Below are positions 2,887 through 17,304 of a stretch of DNA of 46,881 nt, one piece after another. Source of the DNA: Magnetococcales bacterium WMHbinv6 (lineage in GTDB: Bacteria > Pseudomonadota > Magnetococcia > Magnetococcales > Magnetaquicoccaceae); contig PDZV01000031.1 in assembly GCA_002753135.1 (NCBI GenBank), positions 1-46,881 on the forward strand, written 5' to 3'. The stretch's first letter is position 1. The number at the start of each line of letters is the position of its first letter. The translations under genes and the position numbers were made by a program. A model generated the notes under the pieces. That model was not told where the DNA came from and searched no databases. It saw only the letters and a program-made list of their open reading frames with translations.

Positions 2887-3884
2887 TGGCTCAAGCCCCA
2901 TCTGGCACCCCTGGCAAAAAAAGTGCGGCAACACCGTTCAAATCCGGTTTTGTCGCCATCGCCGGTCAACCCAATACCGGCAAATCAACCTTTCTCAACA
3001 AGGTGTTGGGCCAAAAGGTGGCCATTGTCACCCCCAAGGCCCAAACCACGCGCACCCGCATTCTCGGCGTCTGTCATCGCCCGAACTGCCAGATTATTTT
3101 GCTCGACACCCCCGGCATTCACCGCCCCGGAGCCTCTCTGTTCAATCAGGCCATGGTGCGCACGGCTTATGAAGCCTGCCGGGAAGGAGAGATCATTCTC
3201 TATTTTGTCGATGCGGTTCGGGGCATTAACGATATTGATCGCACCATTCTGGAACGGTTGCAACCAGCCGGGGGCAAAGCGCGCCCGCTGCTGCTGGTTC
3301 TCAACAAGGTGGACAAACTGGCAGAACCGGTTTTGTTTGCCCGTCTGCAGGCGTTGGCAGAAATTCCCTGCCGCGCCGTGGTGCCGATTTCTGCCATGAC
3401 CGGCTATAATGTCGACCATCTGCTGGCGCTGTTGCCCGACTATCTGCCGGAAGGGCCGCGCTATTTTCCCGAAGATCAATGGACCGACCAGCCGGAACAA
3501 TTTTTTGCCGCCGAGGTGATTCGGGAAAAACTGTTCCTCCATCTGCAGAAAGAGCTGCCCTATTCGCTGGCGGTCAAGCTGCACAAATTTCAACCCCGGC
3601 AACCGCCGGGCGACAAAGAGATGTGGGATGTGGAGGCCACCATTCTGGTGGAGCGGGAGTCACAAAAGGCCATTGTTATCGGACAAAAGGGCAGCATGCT
3701 CAAACAGGTGGGCAGCGCCGCCCGTCTGGAGTTGGAAAAGCTGTTCACTATTCCGATCTTTCTAAAATTATGGGTACGGGTGCGCAAGGAGTGGGGCGAA
3801 GATGCCGTGCTGCTGCGCGACCTGGGCTACTCCTCTCCCACGCATAACAGCGAGGATGCACAAGAGGATGTTGCGTTCGGATGA
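2886..3884 (+). CDS. era: GTPase Era
   Basis: A 332-residue GTP-binding protein that assists 16S rRNA maturation and 30S assembly. The P-loop GQPNTGKST is at residues 27-35. The G2/G3 region includes TTRTRILG and LLDTPGIHRPG, and G4 is NKVD. The C-terminal KH RNA-binding domain is recognised by VIGQKGSMLKQVGSAAR and LKLWVRVRKEWGED. There is a 15-20 residue N-terminal extension before the GTPase fold. It starts on the last base of the rnc stop codon, and its own 3' end overlaps the start of recO by roughly 29 nt. This fits the conserved rnc-era-recO operon. Confidence 0.97.
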   Translation: MAQAPSGTPGKKSAATPFKSGFVAIAGQPNTGKSTFLNKVLGQKVAIVTPKAQTTRTRILGVCHRPNCQIILLDTPGIHRPGASLFNQAMVRTAYEACREGEIILYFVDAVRGINDIDRTILERLQPAGGKARPLLLVLNKVDKLAEPVLFARLQALAEIPCRAVVPISAMTGYNVDHLLALLPDYLPEGPRYFPEDQWTDQPEQFFAAEVIREKLFLHLQKELPYSLAVKLHKFQPRQPPGDKEMWDVEATILVERESQKAIVIGQKGSMLKQVGSAARLELEKLFTIPIFLKLWVRVRKEWGEDAVLLRDLGYSSPTHNSEDAQEDVAFG

Positions 3885-4719
3885 GGGAGTTGTCCTGCGC
3901 CGCACCCCCTTTGGCGACACCTCGTTGGTGTTGCATCTGTTCAGCCGTGAGCAGGGGTTGCTGACCGTTGTGGCCCGAGGGGTCAGGGCGCAGAACAAAC
4001 GCTCTGCTCTGGACCGGGCCGCCTTGGCCGGCTTTCATACCCTCTCGTTCAGCCATCGCAGCCGTTCACCGCTGGCCATGGCCACCCTGACCCAGGTGGA
4101 GATCGGCCAACCCCGCCACCGTTTATTGCACCACCCTCCGGCCTTGCTGGCCGCCCAGGTGATGCAAGAGATTCTCTACCGCTTTTTAGCCCCCCAGGAT
4201 CCCCACCCCGCCATCTTCAACCTGTTGGAGCAGAGTTGGGACGGCCTGGAAGCGGGTGAAGCTGTGCTGCCCTGGCTGGCCTATTGTCAAAGCCGCTTGC
4301 TGCAGGAGATCGGCTACGGCTGGCGCTGCGACAGCTGCGCCGTCTGTGGCCGCCCACACCCCCTCAGCCATTTTTCGGTCAAACGCAACCAGACCCTGTG
4401 CCACCTGTGCGTCGCTCCCCATCTGGCACCACAACACCCCCCCTCTTCCGCCGTCGACCGCCACGGCACCCCCCTGGCGCAACGCCTTTTTCCCCTCTCG
4501 GCACCACTGCTCTCCACCCTGCAACAACTTCCCCACCTCAACCAACCGGCCTCCCTGCCTGACGCTGATCACAGTGTGCTTTATCAGATTGGGAGTGCTT
4601 GTTTGAGCAGGTTGCAGGGTAAACCATTGTTTGCTGATCAGGCTGTTTTGAAGTATATTGAGAATATTCATGTCACAGCCACGCCTGCGGGCGAACCTTG
4701 TGCCAACCGTCAGCAATAA
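3856..4719 (+). CDS. recO: DNA repair protein RecO
   Basis: A 287-residue recombination mediator of the RecFOR pathway that loads RecA onto SSB-coated single-stranded DNA. The N-terminal OB fold is seen in EGVVLRRTPFGDTSLVLHLFSREQGLLTVVARGVRAQ. The four-cysteine zinc site CDSCAVCGRP ... CHLC lies in the C-terminal half. The open frame extends upstream to 3802, but that part encodes a Cys/Ala-rich stretch unlike RecO, so I place the start at 3856. ATG 3868 is an equally reasonable alternative, preceded by AGAGG. It overlaps era. It is the last gene of the operon; pdxJ, which follows recO in E. coli, is absent here. Confidence 0.92.
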   Translation: MHKRMLRSDEGVVLRRTPFGDTSLVLHLFSREQGLLTVVARGVRAQNKRSALDRAALAGFHTLSFSHRSRSPLAMATLTQVEIGQPRHRLLHHPPALLAAQVMQEILYRFLAPQDPHPAIFNLLEQSWDGLEAGEAVLPWLAYCQSRLLQEIGYGWRCDSCAVCGRPHPLSHFSVKRNQTLCHLCVAPHLAPQHPPSSAVDRHGTPLAQRLFPLSAPLLSTLQQLPHLNQPASLPDADHSVLYQIGSACLSRLQGKPLFADQAVLKYIENIHVTATPAGEPCANRQQ

Positions 4720-4749: not shown

Positions 4750-5916
4750 ATGCACACTCTGGAACAGGATATTGATGAAAGGAACGACAGCTCCCCATTG
4801 GCTGCCCCCGTCAATGGCAGTGGAGTGGAAGAGGAAGATATTGGCATTTCGGAGCCTTTTGATCCGGCAAAAATTAATGTTGTTACGAAACAAATGAGCC
4901 TGGATACGCTTATCAAACGCATGAAAGAAGGGGAAATTGATCTTTCACCAGATTTCCAGCGAAATGAGGTATGGAAGAAAGAGGCAAAAAGTCGTTTGAT
5001 TGAATCCATACTGATTCGTATTCCTTTGCCAGCCTTTTATATGGATGCAACCAACGAGGAACAATGGCTGGTTGTGGATGGTCTGCAACGGCTTTCCACG
5101 CTCAGAGATTTTATTATCAGCAGAGAAAAGAACCAATTACTTCTTGAACATCTTGAATTTCTTAAAGAATTAGAAGGAAAGGGGTTTCAAGATTTGCCTC
5201 GTCCCTATCAACGCCGTATTGAAGAGACGCAAGTGACCGTCTATTTGATCGAGAAAGGGACCCCGCCTGATGTTAAATTTAATATTTTCAAAAGAATCAA
5301 TACTGGCGGCATGCCCCTCTCTTCCCAGGAGATTCGCCATGCCCTGCACCAGGGACCGGTCACTAAATTACTGAAAGAGTTGGCAGAATCGAAGGAGTTT
5401 AAACAGGCAACAGACAATGGTATTCAAGATCAACGATTGTCTGACCAGGAATGCGTTTTGCGTGTTCTTGCTTTTATGAAAACACCCTACTTGGAATATA
5501 ATTCAAACGATTTGGATAGCTTTATAAGCAGTGCCATGGCCAAACTGAATCAGATATCAGAAAGGGAACGGGCAAACATTAAATCACGCTTTATTCGTAT
5601 TATGCAGAGTGCTGCTGTTATTTTTGGTAATAATGCTTTCCGCAAAAGTTCGTATCTTTTGCAAAAACGAAACCCTATCAACAAAGCATTACTTGAGGCG
5701 TGGTCAGTAAATTTAGATAAACTGAGTGACGACGAAATAACTACTCTAATAGATAATAATATCCATGTGCAGATTGGATTTACGCGTCTAATGAGTGACA
5801 AAGAATTTGAAAATGCAGTAACCGCAGGCACAGGGACCATAGCAAGGGTGCGTAAACGCTTTCACGATATTGAGAAGTTGATACAAAGCATCTTAGACGG
5901 CCACAGAGAATATTAA
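4750..5916 (+). CDS. DUF262 (ParB/GmrS-N-like) protein of a putative defence cassette
   Basis: A 388-residue cytoplasmic protein. The DUF262 fold is indicated by LSPDFQRNEVWKKEAKSRLIESILIRIPLPAFYMD (about residues 65-99), a nucleotide-binding/nuclease box VVDGLQRLSTLRDF (about 108-121, with DGLQR in place of the usual DGQQR), and NTGGMPLSSQEIRHAL further on. Family knowledge: DUF262 proteins are related to ParB-type CTPase/nucleases and form the N-terminal part of GmrSD-type modification-dependent restriction enzymes. No DUF1524 (HNH) half is present. It is the first gene of a tightly spaced trio with an AAA ATPase and an unknown protein. Base composition is markedly AT-richer than the recO operon upstream, which suggests horizontal transfer. 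No strong Shine-Dalgarno sequence is visible, so the start is uncertain. Confidence 0.85.
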   Translation: MHTLEQDIDERNDSSPLAAPVNGSGVEEEDIGISEPFDPAKINVVTKQMSLDTLIKRMKEGEIDLSPDFQRNEVWKKEAKSRLIESILIRIPLPAFYMDATNEEQWLVVDGLQRLSTLRDFIISREKNQLLLEHLEFLKELEGKGFQDLPRPYQRRIEETQVTVYLIEKGTPPDVKFNIFKRINTGGMPLSSQEIRHALHQGPVTKLLKELAESKEFKQATDNGIQDQRLSDQECVLRVLAFMKTPYLEYNSNDLDSFISSAMAKLNQISERERANIKSRFIRIMQSAAVIFGNNAFRKSSYLLQKRNPINKALLEAWSVNLDKLSDDEITTLIDNNIHVQIGFTRLMSDKEFENAVTAGTGTIARVRKRFHDIEKLIQSILDGHREY

Positions 5917-5949
5917 CGATTACCACTCTATTATGGATAACCCATAACA

Positions 5950-7059
5950 ATGATTACAAAAATTTACCTATACCACTTTAAATGCTTTGAACACATCACC
6001 ATCCCCTTGGCCAATTTGACCTTGCTCACGGGTCTGAATGGCATGGGTAAATCCTCGGTGATTCAGAGCTTGTTGGTTCTCCGTCAATCCCATCAGCAGA
6101 GGCTTTTACCCGACAAGGGGCTGGCGTTGAATGGAGAACTGATCAATCTGGGCACTGCCAAGGCGGTTCTTTATGAGGAGGCTTTGGAAGACACCTTCGG
6201 GATCACATTGGCATGTCAGCATCCAGCAAGCCGGGCGGAGTTGGTGGTTGATTATGCCAAGGATCTGGATGTCCTGAAAATGCATACCCATAACGTGGAT
6301 CCGGCATTTTTTCAGGAAAGCCTCTTTACTGATCGCTTTCAATATCTGCAGGCGGAACGAAGCGGTCCACGGGTCACCTTTCCGGTTTCGGAACATCATG
6401 TCCGCCAGCACCGACAGTTGGGTGTGCAGGGTGAATATTGCAGCCATTTTCTGGATATTTTTGGTCGAACTTGGTCTACGTTACCCGCACTATGCCATGA
6501 ACGTGGACGTTCGGGCGATTTGATTGATCAGGTTGCTGCCTGGTTGGGTGACATCAGCCCGGGTATTGATCTGCATATTGACACCTACAACCATATGGAT
6601 GTGGTCAATCTGGAATACTCCTATATGACTTCCAAAGGAAGCAGCGGCCACTTCCGGGCCTCAAGTGTGGGATTTGGCATCACCTATACGTTGCCCGTTC
6701 TTGTAGCCATACTCTCTGCCCAACCGGGTTCCCTGCTGATCATGGAAAACCCGGAAGCGCATCTTCACCCCAGGGGACAGACCCTCATCGGGGAACTGAT
6801 CGCCAAAGCCGCTCAGGCAGGGGTGCAGGTTATTGTGGAAACCCACAGCGATCATATTTTGAACGGCATCCGGGTAGCGGTGCGGCAGGGACAATGCGCC
6901 CCGGAACAGGTGGCCATCCACTATTTTGCCCGCAGGGAAGAGGATGGACGGGCACAAAGTTTTCTTGAATCTCCAAAAATTGACCAAAACGGTCGCATTG
7001 ATCACTGGCCGCCTGGATTCTGCGATGAGTGGGAATGCAGTCTGGAAAAACTTTTTTGA
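5950..7059 (+). CDS. AAA family ATPase, DUF3696/AAA_21 type
   Basis: A 369-residue SMC/ABC-like ATPase. The N-terminus MITKIYLYHFKCFEHITIPL is the usual start of these proteins. Walker A is GLNGMGKSS (residues 28-36), followed by the Q-loop region VLRQSHQQ. A Walker B/D-loop segment LLIMENPEAHLHPRGQ and the switch ETHSDHILNGIRVAV lie in the C-terminal third. The ENPEAHLHP and ETHSDH forms are typical of DUF3696-type (COG4938) ATPases found in defence loci. It lies 33 nt after the DUF262 gene and 15 nt before the third gene. I infer that it drives or senses in a complex with the DUF262 protein. It lacks a TOPRIM domain, so it is not an OLD nuclease. Confidence 0.88.
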   Translation: MITKIYLYHFKCFEHITIPLANLTLLTGLNGMGKSSVIQSLLVLRQSHQQRLLPDKGLALNGELINLGTAKAVLYEEALEDTFGITLACQHPASRAELVVDYAKDLDVLKMHTHNVDPAFFQESLFTDRFQYLQAERSGPRVTFPVSEHHVRQHRQLGVQGEYCSHFLDIFGRTWSTLPALCHERGRSGDLIDQVAAWLGDISPGIDLHIDTYNHMDVVNLEYSYMTSKGSSGHFRASSVGFGITYTLPVLVAILSAQPGSLLIMENPEAHLHPRGQTLIGELIAKAAQAGVQVIVETHSDHILNGIRVAVRQGQCAPEQVAIHYFARREEDGRAQSFLESPKIDQNGRIDHWPPGFCDEWECSLEKLF

Positions 7060-7074
7060 TTTCGGTGAAACAGT

Positions 7075-8019
7075 ATGCCTATCGAAATGATTTTCAATGA
7101 ACTCTCCTTGAATCCTCCCGCAGCAAGTCCTGCAGACGCCAAAGCCGCCATGAGCCAATTTGTGGCAACAGTACGAGCCGCCATCACCCTTGGTGTCAGT
7201 CGTCAATTGCGAACCCAGGAGTGCTTTTTGGACTCTTGCATCGCAGACGGGTATTCCATGCGCAGTTATTGCCAAGACAAGAGTGTGGATGAAGTCGAAA
7301 GAACATATTTCATGATGCTATCGACCAAATCCCCTTTTCTTGCAGGGTTGTCAGATCAACAAGAACAAGCAGATAATTGTGATTTTTTCTTCGGCGGCAA
7401 TCAGGCGGAGGGGTTGGGTGCTGCCTATCTGACCGGAAATCTGGCCATCAGTTGGCCATCCGATCCGTTGTGGGACTCCCCTTGCTTGACGCTCACCATA
7501 CACGCATTGCAAGCGGATGGGCAAATCCACGACTTTAAAGAAAACATTCCTCATGCCAGCCAACCGACACATATCAATCAGGATCATCGCCCGTGGATTG
7601 AAGATCTGAAAAAAAAATCTGTCAACACTGCGGATGATCTGTGGCAAAACATGACCGCATATTATCCCTCTCTGCACTGTTGTGATGCCGTCCGCGAACA
7701 GGTTAAAAAACTGCCGAAAGAGTCGTTGAACAGTATCATGCGTGGTCTTCATTGCCTGGAGACCTATTGCCAGCACTGGCAAACGGGCAGCTTTAACCAA
7801 AATGAGCTGGGGTGTGATTCAACAACAGAATCTGAACCCACCAAACAACAGTATGGCAATCAAAGAACATTCACCTGTCCAGATGGTAGCAGTCGCCTCT
7901 TCAGCTATCATGCCAAGACAGGAAAATGGCGTATCCATTACGATCCGGCACCAGGCCCGGGAAAACTCTATATCGGCTATATCGGTCGACACCTGCGCAC
8001 GGTTCGTTTTTCCAGTTAA
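7075..8019 (+). CDS. Unknown third protein of the DUF262-ATPase cassette
   Basis: A 314-residue protein that I do not recognise as a named family. It has no signal peptide or membrane segment. The middle part is acidic and aromatic (around FFFGGNQAEGLGAAYLTGN). The C-terminal 60 residues end in a compact beta-rich module, RLFSYHAKTGKWRIHYDP followed by GKLYIGYIGRHLRT. A similar module is seen at the end of small uncharacterised proteins in defence regions, which is only a recollection of family resemblance. It starts 15 nt after the ATPase gene, so it belongs to the same transcript. By position it could be the target-recognition or toxic component of the cassette. Confidence 0.8.
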   Translation: MPIEMIFNELSLNPPAASPADAKAAMSQFVATVRAAITLGVSRQLRTQECFLDSCIADGYSMRSYCQDKSVDEVERTYFMMLSTKSPFLAGLSDQQEQADNCDFFFGGNQAEGLGAAYLTGNLAISWPSDPLWDSPCLTLTIHALQADGQIHDFKENIPHASQPTHINQDHRPWIEDLKKKSVNTADDLWQNMTAYYPSLHCCDAVREQVKKLPKESLNSIMRGLHCLETYCQHWQTGSFNQNELGCDSTTESEPTKQQYGNQRTFTCPDGSSRLFSYHAKTGKWRIHYDPAPGPGKLYIGYIGRHLRTVRFSS

Positions 8020-8205
8020 GGGGTGCTGTTCTCAAGCTGGCAAGTTGTCTCTGCCACATTGCGACTCGTTCTTTTGGCCACACGTGTACGATCAATGGAC
8101 AATTCTTGGCTTGATCGCAGCAAGGGAATGTGTTACAGCCAAACGCACGCGCCACTGCAGAAAATGTTTGCCCGTGGTGTACCGTTCAACCCCATCACAA
8201 ACACC

Positions 8206-8856
8206 ATGACCACTTCTCCCCCCCCACGAGGCCGTCCACGAGACCCGGAGCGTATGAAACGGGTGCTGGAGGCGGCAGCCCAGCAGTTTTGTACTTTGGG
8301 CTTTGAGCGGACCAGTATGGGTGCGGTGGCGCTGGCGGCGGGGGTGTCGAAGGTGACCATCTACAGCTATTTTCCCAGCAAAGAGCTGCTCTTTGAGGCG
8401 GCGGTGGGCAGTTATACCGATCAGGTTTTTGCCAATCTGCCACCAGAAATTCTTGACCCGCAGCAACCTGCTCTGGCCCTCAGCCGTATCGGTGAGCAAT
8501 TTTTGCAGCTGATCCATTCCGATGCGGCCATCGGCATCTTTCGCGCCCTGCTCGGCTCCGCCGGACAACAAAACAGCGCCTGCCAGCTCTTCTATCGCCG
8601 TGGACCACACACATTGACGCTACAGGTCGCCCACTACCTGCAACAAGCCCAACAGGCTGGCACCCTCACCTTGAATGATCCCATCATCGCGGCGGATCAA
8701 TTTCTCTCCCTGCTCATGGGGTGTTCCCACCTGCAATCCCTCTTCGGGGTCGCCACCCCCAGCCAGGAACAACAACAACAGATTCTGCAACAGGGGGTTA
8801 GCTTTTTTCTCAACGCCTGCAGCAACCGTTCTGAGACCTCTCAAAATAGGCGTTGA
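8206..8856 (+). CDS. TetR/AcrR family transcriptional regulator
   Basis: A 216-residue regulator. The N-terminal helix-turn-helix is clear: GRPRDPERMKRVLEAAAQQF, then GFERTSMGAVALAAGVSKVTIYSYFPSKELLFEA (about residues 32-65). The C-terminal ligand and dimer domain resembles the AefR-like/C_7 group. The frame is open back to 8023, but residues before the ATG at 8206 look non-coding, and MTTSPPPRGRPRDPERMK is a typical TetR start. It lies 61 nt upstream of an RND efflux operon on the same strand, with a palindrome between them. It is therefore most likely the local repressor of that pump, released when a substrate binds. Confidence 0.93.
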   Translation: MTTSPPPRGRPRDPERMKRVLEAAAQQFCTLGFERTSMGAVALAAGVSKVTIYSYFPSKELLFEAAVGSYTDQVFANLPPEILDPQQPALALSRIGEQFLQLIHSDAAIGIFRALLGSAGQQNSACQLFYRRGPHTLTLQVAHYLQQAQQAGTLTLNDPIIAADQFLSLLMGCSHLQSLFGVATPSQEQQQQILQQGVSFFLNACSNRSETSQNRR

Positions 8857-8917: not shown

Positions 8918-10375
8918 ATGATGACCTCTTCCCGTTCTGCAATCATGCTGTTGTCTCTCTTCTTCCTGGCCATGCTGCCCGCTTGTGGCCGTATCGGCGA
9001 CCGTTTGCCTGCCCTGGGCAGCGAAGCCCAATTCCGCCATACCCCGCCACAGACGGAGACGAGTGCTGATCTGACCCTGTGGTGGCAAGCCTTTGCCGAT
9101 CCGCGCCTGGTGCAGCTGTTACAACGAACGGCCCGCGCCAATGCAGAGGTGCGTATCGCCGTGCAACGGCTTCGCCAGGCCCGGCAAGGGGTGATCGCTG
9201 CCGAAGCCTCTCTGTGGCCGAGCCTGGATCTGCTTGCCTCGCATACCGACGCCCGCACCAGCCTGCCCAACTTTTTGAAACAGGGGGGGATGCCCGATCT
9301 GCAGAGCAAACGGCTCTCCCTCGCGGCCCAATGGGAGCTGGATCTGTTCGGCGGGCAGCAGGCGGCCCGCAGCGCTGCCGAACAAGAGGCGGCAGCAGCA
9401 CACTACGGCATCGCCGGGGCGCAACTGTTGGCGATCAGCGAAACGGCCCGTCACTACCTGCACTGGCACGGCCTGCAAGAGCGCATCAACCTGCTGCAGG
9501 CGGTGATCACCAACCAGGAAGAGGAGCGGCAACGGATCCGCAGCCAACACCGGGAGGGGTGGCTTGCTGAGCCGGAACTGGCCCGCGCCGACGCGGCATA
9601 CAATGAAACAGCGGCCCTGCTGCCCGCATTGCGCACCCAACAAAGCATGAGCGAACATCGCATCGCCCTGTTGAGTGGCGATGATCCCTCACTGCCGGTG
9701 CCGGAACTGCAACTGGCGGGAGTCTCTCCCTTGCAGCAGATTCCGGTGGTCAACCCCGGTCAACCGCTGGAACTGCTGCAGCGACGCCCCGATCTGTTGG
9801 CCGCAGAACGGCAGTTGGCTGCCGCTTCTGCCCGCTGGCAGGAGGCACGCAGCCAGCACCTGCCAAAAATATTTCTCAGTGCCCTCTTTGGCCGCCAGGC
9901 CCTGTTGATCAACCACAGCCTGCAACCGGGCACCTCCCCCTTCGCCAATGTGGCCGCCACCTTTAGCCTGCCCCTGCTGCACGCCGGAGCCATTGAGGCC
10001 AACATGGCAGCCCACGAGGCCCGCGAACAGGAACTGTGGCTGGAATACGAGAAAAAGCTGCACCAGGCCATCGAAGAGGTAGAAAATCTGCTGCTGGCCC
10101 TGCACGAAGAGCAGCAGACAGCCAGCCACCATGAGGCAAGCCGCCAGGCCCGCTGGCAGGCCAGCCAACGTACCACCTCCCTGTTGCGGGCAGGAGAGAT
10201 TGGCCTGATCCCCCATTTACAGGCGGAACGGGCCCATTTGGCCGCCTTGTTGAAAGTTAACGAAAGTCAAACACAGCGGGCCTTGTTGACGGTACAACTC
10301 TTCACTGCCTTGGGTGGTGGCTGGCAAACACTGCCGCAGCCGATCCCGCAACCGGAACAGGTATCTGCACCATGA
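8918..10375 (+). CDS. RND efflux outer-membrane lipoprotein (NodT/OprM family)
   Basis: A 485-residue TolC-type outer-membrane channel. The N-terminus has a lipoprotein signal with lipobox LPAC, so Cys23 would be acylated and anchored. Family features include DLTLWWQAFADPRLVQLLQRTARANAEVRIAVQRLRQAR, the WELDLFGGQQAARSAAEQEA segment, and the RRPDLLAAERQLAAASA repeat of the second half. These are the duplicated OEP domains that make the periplasmic alpha-barrel. It is the first gene of a three-gene pump operon; its stop overlaps the adaptor start by 4 nt. Together they would move drugs or metabolites from periplasm and cytoplasm to the outside. Confidence 0.94.
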   Translation: MMTSSRSAIMLLSLFFLAMLPACGRIGDRLPALGSEAQFRHTPPQTETSADLTLWWQAFADPRLVQLLQRTARANAEVRIAVQRLRQARQGVIAAEASLWPSLDLLASHTDARTSLPNFLKQGGMPDLQSKRLSLAAQWELDLFGGQQAARSAAEQEAAAAHYGIAGAQLLAISETARHYLHWHGLQERINLLQAVITNQEEERQRIRSQHREGWLAEPELARADAAYNETAALLPALRTQQSMSEHRIALLSGDDPSLPVPELQLAGVSPLQQIPVVNPGQPLELLQRRPDLLAAERQLAAASARWQEARSQHLPKIFLSALFGRQALLINHSLQPGTSPFANVAATFSLPLLHAGAIEANMAAHEAREQELWLEYEKKLHQAIEEVENLLLALHEEQQTASHHEASRQARWQASQRTTSLLRAGEIGLIPHLQAERAHLAALLKVNESQTQRALLTVQLFTALGGGWQTLPQPIPQPEQVSAP

Positions 10376-11484
10376 ATCGAACCTTATCCCTTTACCTGAT
10401 CTGTTTGACCACCCTGAGCGGTTTGAGCGGCTGCCGGGAGGAAAAAACGGTGCAACCGGCCAGCAAACCGGTGCCGGTGATCACGGTGCAGGCGGCACCG
10501 TTGCACACGAAAAGGGTGTTGCTGGGTACGGTACAGGCCCGTTATGAGACGGAAATGGCTTTTCGCACCGGGGGCAAAATGATTGCCCGCCTGGTGGAGG
10601 TGGGCGATACGGTCAAGGCCGGACAACCGTTGGCCCGCCTTGACCCTGCCGACCATGAACTGGCCCTGCAGGCTGCCGAGGATCAATGGCGTGCCGCCTC
10701 GGTGGATGCCACGCAAGCGGCGGTCGATGAGGCCCGCTTGCGTCGTCTGTTGAGCGACCGTTCCGTTGCCGACGCCGACCATCAACGGCAAAAAGCCAAA
10801 GCCGACGCTGCTGCCGCGCAACAGGCACAAGCCAGGCGGCAACGGGAACTGGCCAGTCACCAGTTGCAATACACCACTTTGCAGGCCGATCGGGACGGGG
10901 TGATTACTGCCATCCGTTTTGAGAGCGGGCAAGTGGTCAGTGAAGGAACCCCCCTGCTCACCCTGGCCAGCGCCGAGGGCTGGGAGATGGTGGTCGATCT
11001 GCCGGAATCGCTGGTCGGGCAGGTCGAGCGCTGGCAGGCCACGGCCCGTTTCTGGCCGAGCAATGTGCCGGAAACACCGTTAACCCTGCGCGAAGTGGCC
11101 GCCCAGGCCAACCTGCCCGCCCGCACCTTTCGCAGCCGTTTTCGTTTGCCACAAGAGGCCTCCCTGCGGCAGGCGGGGTTGCGTCTGGGCATGAGCGCCA
11201 CCGTCCATCTCACCCTGAGCGAGGCTTCGCCTGCCATTCGTCTGCCGACAACCGCTCTGCTGCAAAGTCACGACAAACCTTTCGTCTGGCTGCTGCATGG
11301 CCAGCAACTGCAACAACGACCGGTAGAAATTCACCGCCAGGAGAGCGATCATGTCTGGGTGGAGGGGGTGCAGGTGGGAGAACAGGTGGTGGTCGCCGGT
11401 GGGCAAAAGTGGGACGCCAGCATGCCGGTACGGGCCATGCCGATGGATGGGGCAGCATCAGGCAAGCGGAACGGCACCCCATGA
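10372..11484 (+). CDS. RND efflux periplasmic adaptor (HlyD/MFP family), lipoprotein
   Basis: A 370-residue membrane fusion protein linking the permease to the outer-membrane channel. The lipoprotein signal peptide ends in LSGC (acylated Cys21). The lipoyl half-motifs are ARLVEVGDTVKAGQPLARLDP and LQADRDGVITAIRFESGQVVSEGTPL. An alpha-hairpin lies between them (AEDQWRAASVDATQAAVDEARLRR and onward), followed by beta-barrel and membrane-proximal domains. Both ends overlap neighbours by 4 nt (ATGA), indicating translational coupling within the operon. It is the pump-specific partner of the permease at 11481. Confidence 0.95.
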   Translation: MNRTLSLYLICLTTLSGLSGCREEKTVQPASKPVPVITVQAAPLHTKRVLLGTVQARYETEMAFRTGGKMIARLVEVGDTVKAGQPLARLDPADHELALQAAEDQWRAASVDATQAAVDEARLRRLLSDRSVADADHQRQKAKADAAAAQQAQARRQRELASHQLQYTTLQADRDGVITAIRFESGQVVSEGTPLLTLASAEGWEMVVDLPESLVGQVERWQATARFWPSNVPETPLTLREVAAQANLPARTFRSRFRLPQEASLRQAGLRLGMSATVHLTLSEASPAIRLPTTALLQSHDKPFVWLLHGQQLQQRPVEIHRQESDHVWVEGVQVGEQVVVAGGQKWDASMPVRAMPMDGAASGKRNGTP

Positions 11485-14400
11485 ACCGCTTCAATCTCTC
11501 TTATTGGGCAGTCACCCATCGTCCACTGGTGCTGTTTCTGCTGCTGCTCACCCTGCTGGCCGGGAGCATCTCCTACCTGCAGTTGGGCCGTTCGGAAGAT
11601 CCGATTTTCAATGTGCCAATGATGACCGCCCTGGTCATCTGGCCCGGAGCGACCGCCCGCGAGGTGCAGGATCAGCTGCTCAACCGTATGGAACGACGCC
11701 TGCGCGAATTGGAAGGGTTTGATTTTGTGCGCAGCTTTGCCCGCCAGGGCTATGGGGCTTTGACCCTGCGCCTGCAAGGTCGTCTCAGCAAGCAGGAGTT
11801 TGACAACAGCTGGTATCAGGTGCGCAAAAAAATCGGCGATATACGCCGGGAATTTCCAGAAGGGGTGCAGGGGCCGTTTTACAACGACGAATACAATGAT
11901 GTCTACCTGGCTCTGCTGGCGCTGCGCGGCGAAGGGTTGAGCATGGCGCAACTGCTGGCCCAGGCGGAACGAATCAAGATCGAACTGCAGCGCATTCCCG
12001 CCCTCAACAAGGTGGATATTCTCGGCAAGCAGGCGGAAAAACTCTACATCGATCTCTCCCTCCGTCGCCTGACCGCCGCCGGCATCTCGCCCTTGACCCT
12101 GATCGATACCCTGAGCCGACAAAACCAGCTCAATGCAGCCGGTATGGTTGATACCGCCCATGATCGCCTCTTTCTGCGCGTCAGCGGTGCCTTGCAAACG
12201 GAACAGGAGGTGGCGGCTTTGCCAATCGAAGCGGGCGGGCAGTTGCTGGCACTGGGCGATATTGCCCATGTTCACACCGGATATGAAGAGCCACCCGCTT
12301 ATCTCATCCGCCATAACGGGCAGCCGGTGCTGGCCATTGGCGTCACCATGCACAGTCGGGCCAATATTCTGCAAGTGGGCAAAGAGCTGGATGCCCGCCT
12401 GCAGAGTTTGCAGGCGGGGTTGCCGGTCGGGGTCACTCTGGAAAAATATGCCAATCAGCCGCAGGTGGTGGACGAATCGGTCTGGGAGTTTGAAAAATCG
12501 TTCCTGGAAGCCCTGGCCATTGTTCTGGCTGTCTCTTTTTGGGCCCTGGGACGCCATGCCGGTCTGGTGGTGGCCGCTTCGGTACCGCTGGTTCTCGGAT
12601 TGGTGTTGATCGTCATGAAAGGGGCCGGCTGGAATCTGGATCGCATCTCACTGGGTTCGTTGATCATCGCCCTCGGCCTGCTGGTCGATGATGCCATCAT
12701 TGCCGTGGAAATGATGGTGGTCAAAATTGAACAGGGCTGGGACCGGCTGCAGGCCGCCTCTTTCGCCTATCAATCGACGGCCTTTCCCATGCTGACCGGG
12801 ACGCTGGTCACCGTGGCCGGTTTCATGCCGGTCGGTTTTGCCCAATCGATCGCCGGGGAGTATGCCGGAGCCATTTTCTGGATCGTCGGTATTGCTTTGC
12901 TTGCCTCCTGGCTGGTGGCAGTTCTCTTTACCCCCTACCTGGGCATGTTGCTGCATCCGGGGCAAAGCGTTCACCGCCATGAGGATCTCTATGCCACCCC
13001 TTTTTATCAACGGCTGCGCCGTCTGATTCTCTTTTGTGTCCGCCAGCGCTCTTGGGTGCTGATGGCCACCCTGTCGCTATTTCTCGCCGCCGGGGCGGGC
13101 ATGGGGCTGGTGCAGCAACAGTTTTTTCCCACCGCTTCCCGCCCGGAACTGCTGGTGGAGCTGCGTCTGCAGGAGGGAGCCTCGCATGCGGCCCTGCTAC
13201 GAGAGGTCAAACGACTGGAAACGCTGCTCAGCCAGGAGAGCGAGGTGCCCTACTTTACCGCCTATCTTGGTGCCGGTTCCCCCCGTTTCTATATGTCGCT
13301 GGAACCGGAACTGCCCAATCCCGGCTATGCCCAGTTTGTGATCATGACCAGCGGCAGCGAAGCCCGCGAACGGTTGCGCCAGCGCCTGATGACCCTTTTT
13401 GCCGAAGAGAGCACCTTTCCGCAAACGCGAGGACGGGTGTTGCGCCTGGAGTTTGGCCCGCCGGTCGGCTTTCCGGTCCAGTTTCGTGTCATCGGACCGG
13501 ATAGCCAAAGGGTGCGCGATGTTGCCTACCGGGTGCGCGATGCCGTGCGGCAAAGCCCCCTGGTGCGCGACACCCAGTTGGATTGGCAGGAACAGGTGCG
13601 TATCCAACGGGTGCAGGTCGATCAGCAGCGTGCCCGTCTCCTGGGCCTGAACAGCAGCGATGTGGCCACGCTGCTGCAAGCGGTGACCCAGGGCGTTCCG
13701 GTGACCCAAATCCGCCGTGGCGAAGAGTTGATCGATGTGATCCTGCGCGGTGAGACAAACGAACGTTTGGCCATCGAACAGTTGCCGGATCTGCCCTTTT
13801 TGTTGCGCAACGGCTCTTCTGTCACCTTGGGTGCCTTTGCCCAACTGCAGGCCGACTTTGAAGATCCGGTCCTCTGGCGACGCAATCGCCATATGGCCAT
13901 CACCGTGCGCAGCGACCTGGTCGATGGTGTGCAAGGCCCCTATGCCACCGAAGCCATCTGGCCCTCTCTGCAACCCATTATCGATACGCTGCCCCCCGAT
14001 TACCGCATCGAACAGGGGGGAGCCATCGAGGAGAGCGACAAGGCCAACCAAGCCTTGCTGGCGGTTTTTCCGCTGATGTTTCTGGTCATGTTGTCGATTC
14101 TGATGTGGCAGCTGCAGAGTTTTCCCCGCCTGCTGATGGTCTTGTTGACGGCACCGCTGGGTTTGATCGGCGTTGTTCCGGCCCTGCTGCTGTTCAACGC
14201 CCCTTTCGGTTTTGTTGCCCTGCTGGGGGTAATCGCCCTCGGTGGCATGATCATGCGCAACTCGGTGATTCTGGTCGATCAAATTGAACAGGAGATGCGC
14301 GAGGGTACCCCCCCCTGGCAGGCGATCATCGAATCCACCGTGCGCCGTTCGCGCCCGGTTCTGTTGACCGCCGCAGCCGCCATTTTGGCCATGATTCCCC

Positions 14401-14552
14401 TGTCGCGCAGTATTTTCTGGGGGCCGATGGCCATCGCCATCATGGGCGGCCTGATCATCGCCACCCTGCTTACCCTGGCCTTTATTCCGGCACTCTATGC
14501 CGCCTGGTACCGGGTCGAGGAGAAGGTCACCGCAGAGAAACTTGCTCCCTGA
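11481..14552 (+). CDS. RND efflux permease (AcrB/HAE1-like)
   Basis: A 1023-residue inner-membrane proton-driven transporter with twelve predicted membrane segments and two large periplasmic loops. Proton-relay aspartates are Asp403-Asp404 in LGLLVDDAIIAVEM. The lysine typical of TM10 in AcrB (AKNAIL) is replaced by Arg926 in GGMIMRNSVILVDQI, a conservative change. An upstream extension of the open frame to 11409 is rejected, because the ATG at 11481 overlaps the adaptor stop by 4 nt and gives MNRFNLSYWAVTHRPLVLF, the normal family start. It is the last gene of the TetR-controlled operon. Substrates cannot be inferred. Confidence 0.95.
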   Translation: MNRFNLSYWAVTHRPLVLFLLLLTLLAGSISYLQLGRSEDPIFNVPMMTALVIWPGATAREVQDQLLNRMERRLRELEGFDFVRSFARQGYGALTLRLQGRLSKQEFDNSWYQVRKKIGDIRREFPEGVQGPFYNDEYNDVYLALLALRGEGLSMAQLLAQAERIKIELQRIPALNKVDILGKQAEKLYIDLSLRRLTAAGISPLTLIDTLSRQNQLNAAGMVDTAHDRLFLRVSGALQTEQEVAALPIEAGGQLLALGDIAHVHTGYEEPPAYLIRHNGQPVLAIGVTMHSRANILQVGKELDARLQSLQAGLPVGVTLEKYANQPQVVDESVWEFEKSFLEALAIVLAVSFWALGRHAGLVVAASVPLVLGLVLIVMKGAGWNLDRISLGSLIIALGLLVDDAIIAVEMMVVKIEQGWDRLQAASFAYQSTAFPMLTGTLVTVAGFMPVGFAQSIAGEYAGAIFWIVGIALLASWLVAVLFTPYLGMLLHPGQSVHRHEDLYATPFYQRLRRLILFCVRQRSWVLMATLSLFLAAGAGMGLVQQQFFPTASRPELLVELRLQEGASHAALLREVKRLETLLSQESEVPYFTAYLGAGSPRFYMSLEPELPNPGYAQFVIMTSGSEARERLRQRLMTLFAEESTFPQTRGRVLRLEFGPPVGFPVQFRVIGPDSQRVRDVAYRVRDAVRQSPLVRDTQLDWQEQVRIQRVQVDQQRARLLGLNSSDVATLLQAVTQGVPVTQIRRGEELIDVILRGETNERLAIEQLPDLPFLLRNGSSVTLGAFAQLQADFEDPVLWRRNRHMAITVRSDLVDGVQGPYATEAIWPSLQPIIDTLPPDYRIEQGGAIEESDKANQALLAVFPLMFLVMLSILMWQLQSFPRLLMVLLTAPLGLIGVVPALLLFNAPFGFVALLGVIALGGMIMRNSVILVDQIEQEMREGTPPWQAIIESTVRRSRPVLLTAAAAILAMIPLSRSIFWGPMAIAIMGGLIIATLLTLAFIPALYAAWYRVEEKVTAEKLAP

Positions 14553-16317: not shown

Positions 16318-17304
16318 TCATCCGGCTGGGTGAACCCACTCACCTCTGTAGAGCATGTCGTAGGTGGGTGATGGTGCATGCACCGCAAGTCCGAGAACCG
16401 AATTGAATGCCGTCATCGGGTAGAACCGCCGGTTGAACCGGAACACAAATTCGTTGAGGTAAGCCTGCAAATGATGCTGACTGACTCCGTGATGCGTCCC
16501 AAGCAACCAAGTTTTGAGATTCGAGAAGGCTATGTGGATCATTGGCAGGTGGGCATCGGTTCTTTCGGGATCCCCATCAAGTACCAACGGTTCGTGCTTG
16601 TATCCCAATTGCGCCAAGTCATCATAAGCTGCCCATCCATCTGTACGCACAACGGATCCCTTTGCCACACTTTCTTGCACAAATCCCGTGAGTTCGTTGG
16701 CTCCACGACCTGGCACGAGACGCAGTCGCAACCTGCCAGCATAAACTGTTCTTTTGTGCTTTTTGTCCTCGGCATCTGGCGTCCTGGTGCGCACTTCGAT
16801 GGCTCCAACGACCGTCGCTTTGTGGTGGACACCGCGCCCTTTACCTCTCGTGCGGCCGCCTACAAGAGTCTCATCCACTTCAACCGGGTATTGGTCTCCA
16901 ATAGCATCTCGCTCTGGTCGCACCATGCCGGCACGGAGCTTGTGAAGCATCTGGAATGCCGTCTCATAGCGGGACAGCCCCAGTTGCCGCTGAAATTGGA
17001 GTGCAGATTGCCCTGGCGTCTGTGTCGTCACAAGGTAAGCCCCCCAAAACCATACCGACAAGGGAGTGTGACTGGATCTCATGACGGAGGACGCCGTAAG
17101 CGACACGTTAGCGTGACAGGCCCGGCACCTCAACACAACCGATGCCCGCTTGGTGAACCGATAGGGTTCTCCGATACTCTCACATTTCGAGCACGAGAAA
17201 CCGCTTGGCCAACGCAAATGCTCCAAGTATCGTGCGCAGGCCTCGTCATCGGGAAAAACCTGTTGAAACTCAGGAAGTGTTGTTGGAAAGCCCCGTGGAT
17301 CCAT
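16318..17304 (-). CDS. IS1595 family (ISXO2-like) transposase
   Basis: A 328-residue DDE-type transposase, full length. An N-terminal zinc ribbon (FSCSKCESIG ... LRCRACHANVS) is followed by a helix-turn-helix region (LSRYETAFQMLHKLRAGM). The ISXO2 catalytic domain begins at VEVDETLVGGRTRGKGRG and continues with VVRTDGWAAYDDL and the family signature HIAFSNLKTWLLGTHHGVS. It ends with YLNEFVFRFNRR. Acidic residues Asp of VDE, Asp of TDG and the Glu of NEF are present. No frameshift is seen. It catalyses cut-and-paste movement of the surrounding element. Confidence 0.95.
   Translation of the reverse strand: MDPRGFPTTLPEFQQVFPDDEACARYLEHLRWPSGFSCSKCESIGEPYRFTKRASVVLRCRACHANVSLTASSVMRSSHTPLSVWFWGAYLVTTQTPGQSALQFQRQLGLSRYETAFQMLHKLRAGMVRPERDAIGDQYPVEVDETLVGGRTRGKGRGVHHKATVVGAIEVRTRTPDAEDKKHKRTVYAGRLRLRLVPGRGANELTGFVQESVAKGSVVRTDGWAAYDDLAQLGYKHEPLVLDGDPERTDAHLPMIHIAFSNLKTWLLGTHHGVSQHHLQAYLNEFVFRFNRRFYPMTAFNSVLGLAVHAPSPTYDMLYRGEWVHPAG

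Follow-up and report, generated by a model that had tools for sequence, protein, structure and literature searches.

A complete Menshen (NsnABC) operon in a Magnetococcales genome, with a predicted RelE-like domain in its third protein

The window analysed here is a 46,881-nucleotide stretch of DNA from the Magnetococcales bacterium WMHbinv6. Three intact plus-strand open reading frames occupy positions 4750-8019, immediately downstream of recO, as the original prediction had placed them. Their arrangement is operon-like, and the gaps of 33 nt (nsnA-nsnB) and 15 nt (nsnB-nsnC) bear out the tight spacing described there. The genes and features are as follows.

3802..4719, + strand: recO, upstream flank, outside the system (position and relatives)
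4750..5916, + strand: nsnA, 388 aa (PADLOC NsnA, PF03235, motif conservation)
5950..7059, + strand: nsnB, 369 aa (PADLOC NsnB, Pfam, invariant motifs)
7075..8019, + strand: nsnC, 314 aa, putative effector (PADLOC NsnC, AlphaFold2 pLDDT 92.4)
7621..8016, + strand: predicted RelE-like C-terminal domain of NsnC, residues 183-314 (AlphaFold2, PDB matches, conserved basic residues)
8023..8856, + strand: tetR-type regulator gene, downstream flank, outside the system (collinear with a sister genome)

The true start of the TetR-type regulator is probably near 8200. It is followed by genes for an outer-membrane factor, an HlyD-type protein and an RND pump, all named from their translations by inspection. 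The trio had been described as AT-richer than its surroundings. This holds strongly for nsnA (GC 0.40-0.45, against 0.55-0.65 around the trio); for nsnB and nsnC (about 0.49-0.53) the difference is slight. Promoter and terminator scans of the locus gave no score above shuffles. The trio is present once in the 3.84 Mb genome.

Against the PADLOC profiles, the first protein matches NsnA (1.3e-142, residues 24-382 of 388), the second NsnB (4.1e-116, residues 1-369) and the third NsnC (1.5e-82, residues 1-308). Runner-up families are far weaker (PD-T4-2_A, 2.7e-43; HEC-03B, 7.5e-36), and the third protein matches no profiles other than those of NsnC, PDLC03879 and PDLC03912 being the nearest. Because all three component proteins match, in Menshen order, we regard it as practically certain that the locus is a complete Menshen (NsnABC) system. 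The resemblance to Menshen and the anti-phage assignment, suggested earlier, are thus confirmed by the very PADLOC check that had been proposed. The third protein, then called unrecognised, is a clear NsnC, even though Pfam alone gives no match. All three genes are therefore assigned to a described system, which is the outcome that the original prediction had itself named as counting against its proposal. That proposal, of a new DUF262-ATPase-unknown defence system, or of a new Menshen variant should the third gene not be homologous, draws on the missing Pfam match of NsnC and on the diversity of the NsnC family. We reject it as extremely improbable: all three genes match Menshen profiles over nearly their full length and in the same order, the third gene encodes an NsnC homologue, and the profile it matches is shared by every one of the 18 NsnC proteins aligned. 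No architectural difference from Menshen was found; the NsnC family is itself very diverse. A complete Menshen system is now placed in Magnetococcales, where its predicted function, as judged from sequence, is protection against phage.

How did the operon come to lie at this site? In a sister genome (G021), rnc, era, recO, tetR and the genes for the outer-membrane factor, HlyD-type protein and RND pump run in the same order as in the window, their proteins being 67-85% identical, and the trio is missing. In its place, the recO-tetR gap (L049:3263-4504, +) holds a 238-aa open reading frame and two small ones; by eye, the latter resemble a DUF4160/DUF2442 pair. Because the sister genome carries other genes between recO and tetR, we view the trio as a variable, exchangeable insert, and the best explanation is that the Menshen operon was acquired as such between recO and the tetR-RND efflux cluster. 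Neither mobility genes nor border repeats were seen at the trio, only chance-like repeats. Elsewhere in the window, a 328-aa open reading frame at 16318-17304 (- strand) resembles, on inspection, an IS1595-type transposase. Other Magnetococcales carry Menshen operons at unrelated sites, for example beside RND pumps, an apparent murI, hemA/prfA and carA (named by inspection).

The NsnC profile matches 12 of 48 Magnetococcales genomes, among them a relative of the same genus (G025), and 14 control genomes gave no match. Apart from the window, 13 Magnetococcales loci have nsnA, nsnB and nsnC adjacent and in this order; one such locus is truncated by the end of its contig. A further two loci are decayed copies: L025:9058-10248 (-) retains remnants of nsnA, nsnB and nsnC in order (182, 92 and 128 aa, respectively), and L031:2576-3887 (+) has a 353-aa nsnA followed by a short nsnC fragment, with no nsnB between them. 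At L077:1462-4089 (+), an NsnA homologue (7.7e-128) stands in a different context: in place of nsnB and nsnC it precedes the gene of a 455-aa AAA ATPase-like protein that has no PADLOC match. Outside Magnetococcales, the A-B-C order is seen in four other genomes; an NsnC-profile protein follows NsnB in Spirochaetae, in Pseudoalteromonas and on a viral contig. Menshen genes occur on IMG/VR viral contigs at L134:671-3402 and L135:5425-9086, where NsnA is longer (573 aa). Phage records yielded no NsnC relative and plasmids a single one (23.5% identity). A single-protein pattern search for NsnC in genome contigs found no match.

NsnA is a ParB-like NTP-binding protein of the DUF262/GmrSD_N family (PF03235, 2.2e-27), and NsnB ends in DUF3696 (2.7e-13), so the pairing of a ParB-like DUF262 protein with a DUF3696-type ATPase was recognised correctly at the outset. 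The motif VDGLQR lies at residues 109-114 of NsnA. D110, G111 and R114 do not vary among 14 NsnA sequences; at position 112, 11 of them have L and three have V, and 13 keep Q113. DGLQR is therefore the NsnA family's own normal motif. The earlier observation that DGLQR (residues 110-114) stands in place of DGQQR was accurate, and its reading as an unusual motif is corrected here: DG[L/V]QR is typical of NsnA, and this protein does not carry the [I/V]DGQQR of GmrSD.

The DUF262 (GmrSD_N) domain of NsnA is also that of the GmrSD/BrxU type IV restriction enzymes, and NsnA weakly matches a solved DUF262 protein (7p9k, 1.8e-5). NsnA differs from these enzymes in lacking the DUF1524/HNH half, in carrying DGLQR rather than DGQQR, and in having an ATPase and NsnC as partners. 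None of the three proteins has a DUF1524/HNH match in Pfam, in agreement with the initial view that this is not a standard GmrSD enzyme. A GmrSD variant is rejected on the same two grounds, the absent nuclease half and the motif. Menshen has been described as lacking the DUF1524 domain, and mutation or deletion of its DUF262 gene abolishes protection (PMC10952713).

NsnB is an ABC/OLD-type ATPase (Pfam AAA_21/AAA_15) in which Walker A (GxNGxGKSS), Walker B and the ETHSDH motif are intact. The NTP-binding motifs of NsnA and NsnB are essentially invariant among relatives. An OLD/TOPRIM nuclease has been ascribed to Menshen (PMC10952713); Pfam finds none in these three proteins. In NsnB the ATPase is followed by DUF3696, with no TOPRIM match by Pfam, and an OLD nuclease was rejected as an identification of NsnB on this basis. 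NsnB is related to the OLD-family ATPase 6p74 (2.5e-14) and also matches the PADLOC profiles of AriA, the ATPase of PARIS (8.3e-24). The kinship with AriA is a weak hint of a guarded toxin, since many systems have AAA profiles that NsnB matches.

NsnC consists of an N-terminal region of about residues 1-182 and a C-terminal domain of residues 183-314. AlphaFold2 modelled the whole protein, using 18 relatives, with a mean pLDDT of 92.4 and a pTM of 0.83, and the tail alone with a pLDDT of 94.2. In Foldseek searches of the PDB, toxins of the RelE superfamily take ranks 1-5 for whole NsnC (about 110 columns). For the tail, ranks 1-19 are all toxins of the RelE/ParE superfamily, among them RelE, YoeB, PfiT and a Streptococcus pneumoniae toxin-antitoxin module. 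Match probabilities reach 0.99 and TM-scores by target are mostly 0.45-0.62 (best about 0.6). With a best E-value of only 0.02 the match is remote but consistent, and the ranking is uniform. Strands and helices follow one another as in RelE, apart from an extra helix inserted ahead of the final sheet. A search against viral structures returned no clear match. On the strength of these models, the C-terminal domain of NsnC appears to have a RelE-like fold.

By sequence, the profile of alignment A1 gave no meaningful match to solved structures. Aligned with hhalign to seven RelE proteins, including that of E. coli K-12, the NsnC tail profile scores an E-value of 0.0088 at a low probability (4.6%); the first strand, the helices and the final hairpin fall in the expected register. 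Against a wider ParE/RelE set, the tail scores 16.3, above the maximum of 14.0 from 100 column shuffles; the terminal hairpin alone does not rise above shuffled columns. K52, K54, R61 and R81 of RelE are catalytic. By our own reading of the alignment alongside the K-12 sequence, H279, K281, R286 and H306 of NsnC would lie at or next to these residues. Among the 18 NsnC proteins, the H279 column is always H, K281 is K or R in all, R286 is R in 17, and H306 is H or K in all; additionally, E252 is E in 16. Independent evidence comes from the NsnC of Pseudoalteromonas sp. A601 (L133), in which residues 201-290, at the same position, match PF05973 (Gp49) with an E-value of 1.8e-9 that passes the curated threshold. 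Gp49 is a HigB-type toxin family. In NsnC proteins from three distant Menshen loci (L131:8235-9077, L133:8212-9108, L135:8157-9086), the tails resemble a different subgroup of HigB/RelE toxins. This suggests that toxins of a single superfamily can take one another's place as NsnC tails. The tail shares the predicted fold and the aligned basic residues with RelE and HigB toxins, and differs from them in being fused to a region of about 180 residues, in its insert with the extra helix, and in having no adjacent antitoxin gene.

We propose that NsnC acts as the system's effector RNase, under the control of NsnA and NsnB. NsnA, as a ParB-like NTP-binding DUF262 protein, and NsnB, as an ABC/OLD-type ATPase, would form an NTP-driven assembly for sensing and control, which would either restrain NsnC or switch it on. 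Upon a phage trigger, the RelE-like domain of NsnC may cut RNA, probably ribosome-bound mRNA, such that translation would stop and the infection abort. Complex formation, trigger, RNA cleavage and abortive outcome are all steps that we infer, and we consider the chances of this mechanism as a whole to be evenly balanced. A RelE-like tail on NsnC would explain how Menshen stops phage and point to the residues worth mutating.

It is also conceivable, and to us somewhat unlikely, that NsnC is a recognition or adaptor subunit, and that killing is done by an OLD-like or DUF262-linked nuclease of NsnA-NsnB acting on phage DNA. An OLD nuclease is predicted in Menshen, with the suggestion that DUF262 regulates it (PMC10952713). 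The relation of NsnB to OLD-family ATPases fits this account, as does the variability of NsnC, the highest of the three subunits, which could suit a recognition role. However, NsnB ends in DUF3696 without a TOPRIM match, the nuclease half is missing from NsnA, and 17-18 of 18 proteins retain the basic residues of the RelE-like NsnC tail.

The fold itself leaves room for another activity. RelE-fold proteins may instead inhibit gyrase, as ParE does, or lack catalysis. That NsnC is a toxin of this fold with an activity other than RNase, ParE-like or not, such as a gyrase poison, is very doubtful in our view: the fold is common to RelE and ParE, but the conserved basic residues of NsnC line up with RelE's own, and it is the HigB-type Gp49 family that the Pseudoalteromonas relative matches.

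The reading of NsnC as an RNase invites comparison with PARIS, whose AriA is related to NsnB; an ABC-type ATPase controlling a toxic nuclease would be the shared logic. PARIS is not known to contain a DUF262 protein. The effectors differ as well, AriB being a TOPRIM tRNase (PMC12409363) and the NsnC tail RelE-like. Menshen might be a guarded-toxin system resembling PARIS, in which NsnA and the AriA-like NsnB control a RelE-type mRNA interferase, NsnC, and a toxin-antitoxin-type RNase replaces the TOPRIM tRNase. We consider it unlikely that this holds in full with the link still unpublished. In the literature searched for Menshen together with RelE, one review names both and draws no link between them. 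The domains of Menshen are the subject of a 2025 paper that PMC12704722 and PMC12839542 cite; judging by its title, it has likely already described the domains of NsnC, perhaps the RelE-like one among them. What the analysis adds as a by-product is a testable hypothesis, that the end of NsnC is a RelE-like domain in which residues of catalytic type are conserved.

Finally, RND efflux operons (window 8918-14552, L019:917-5166 and L030:1-2726) lie beside or near three Magnetococcales Menshen operons. This proximity, possibly a coincidence, is tight at L019, where only about 18 nt separate the RND operon from the Menshen operon.
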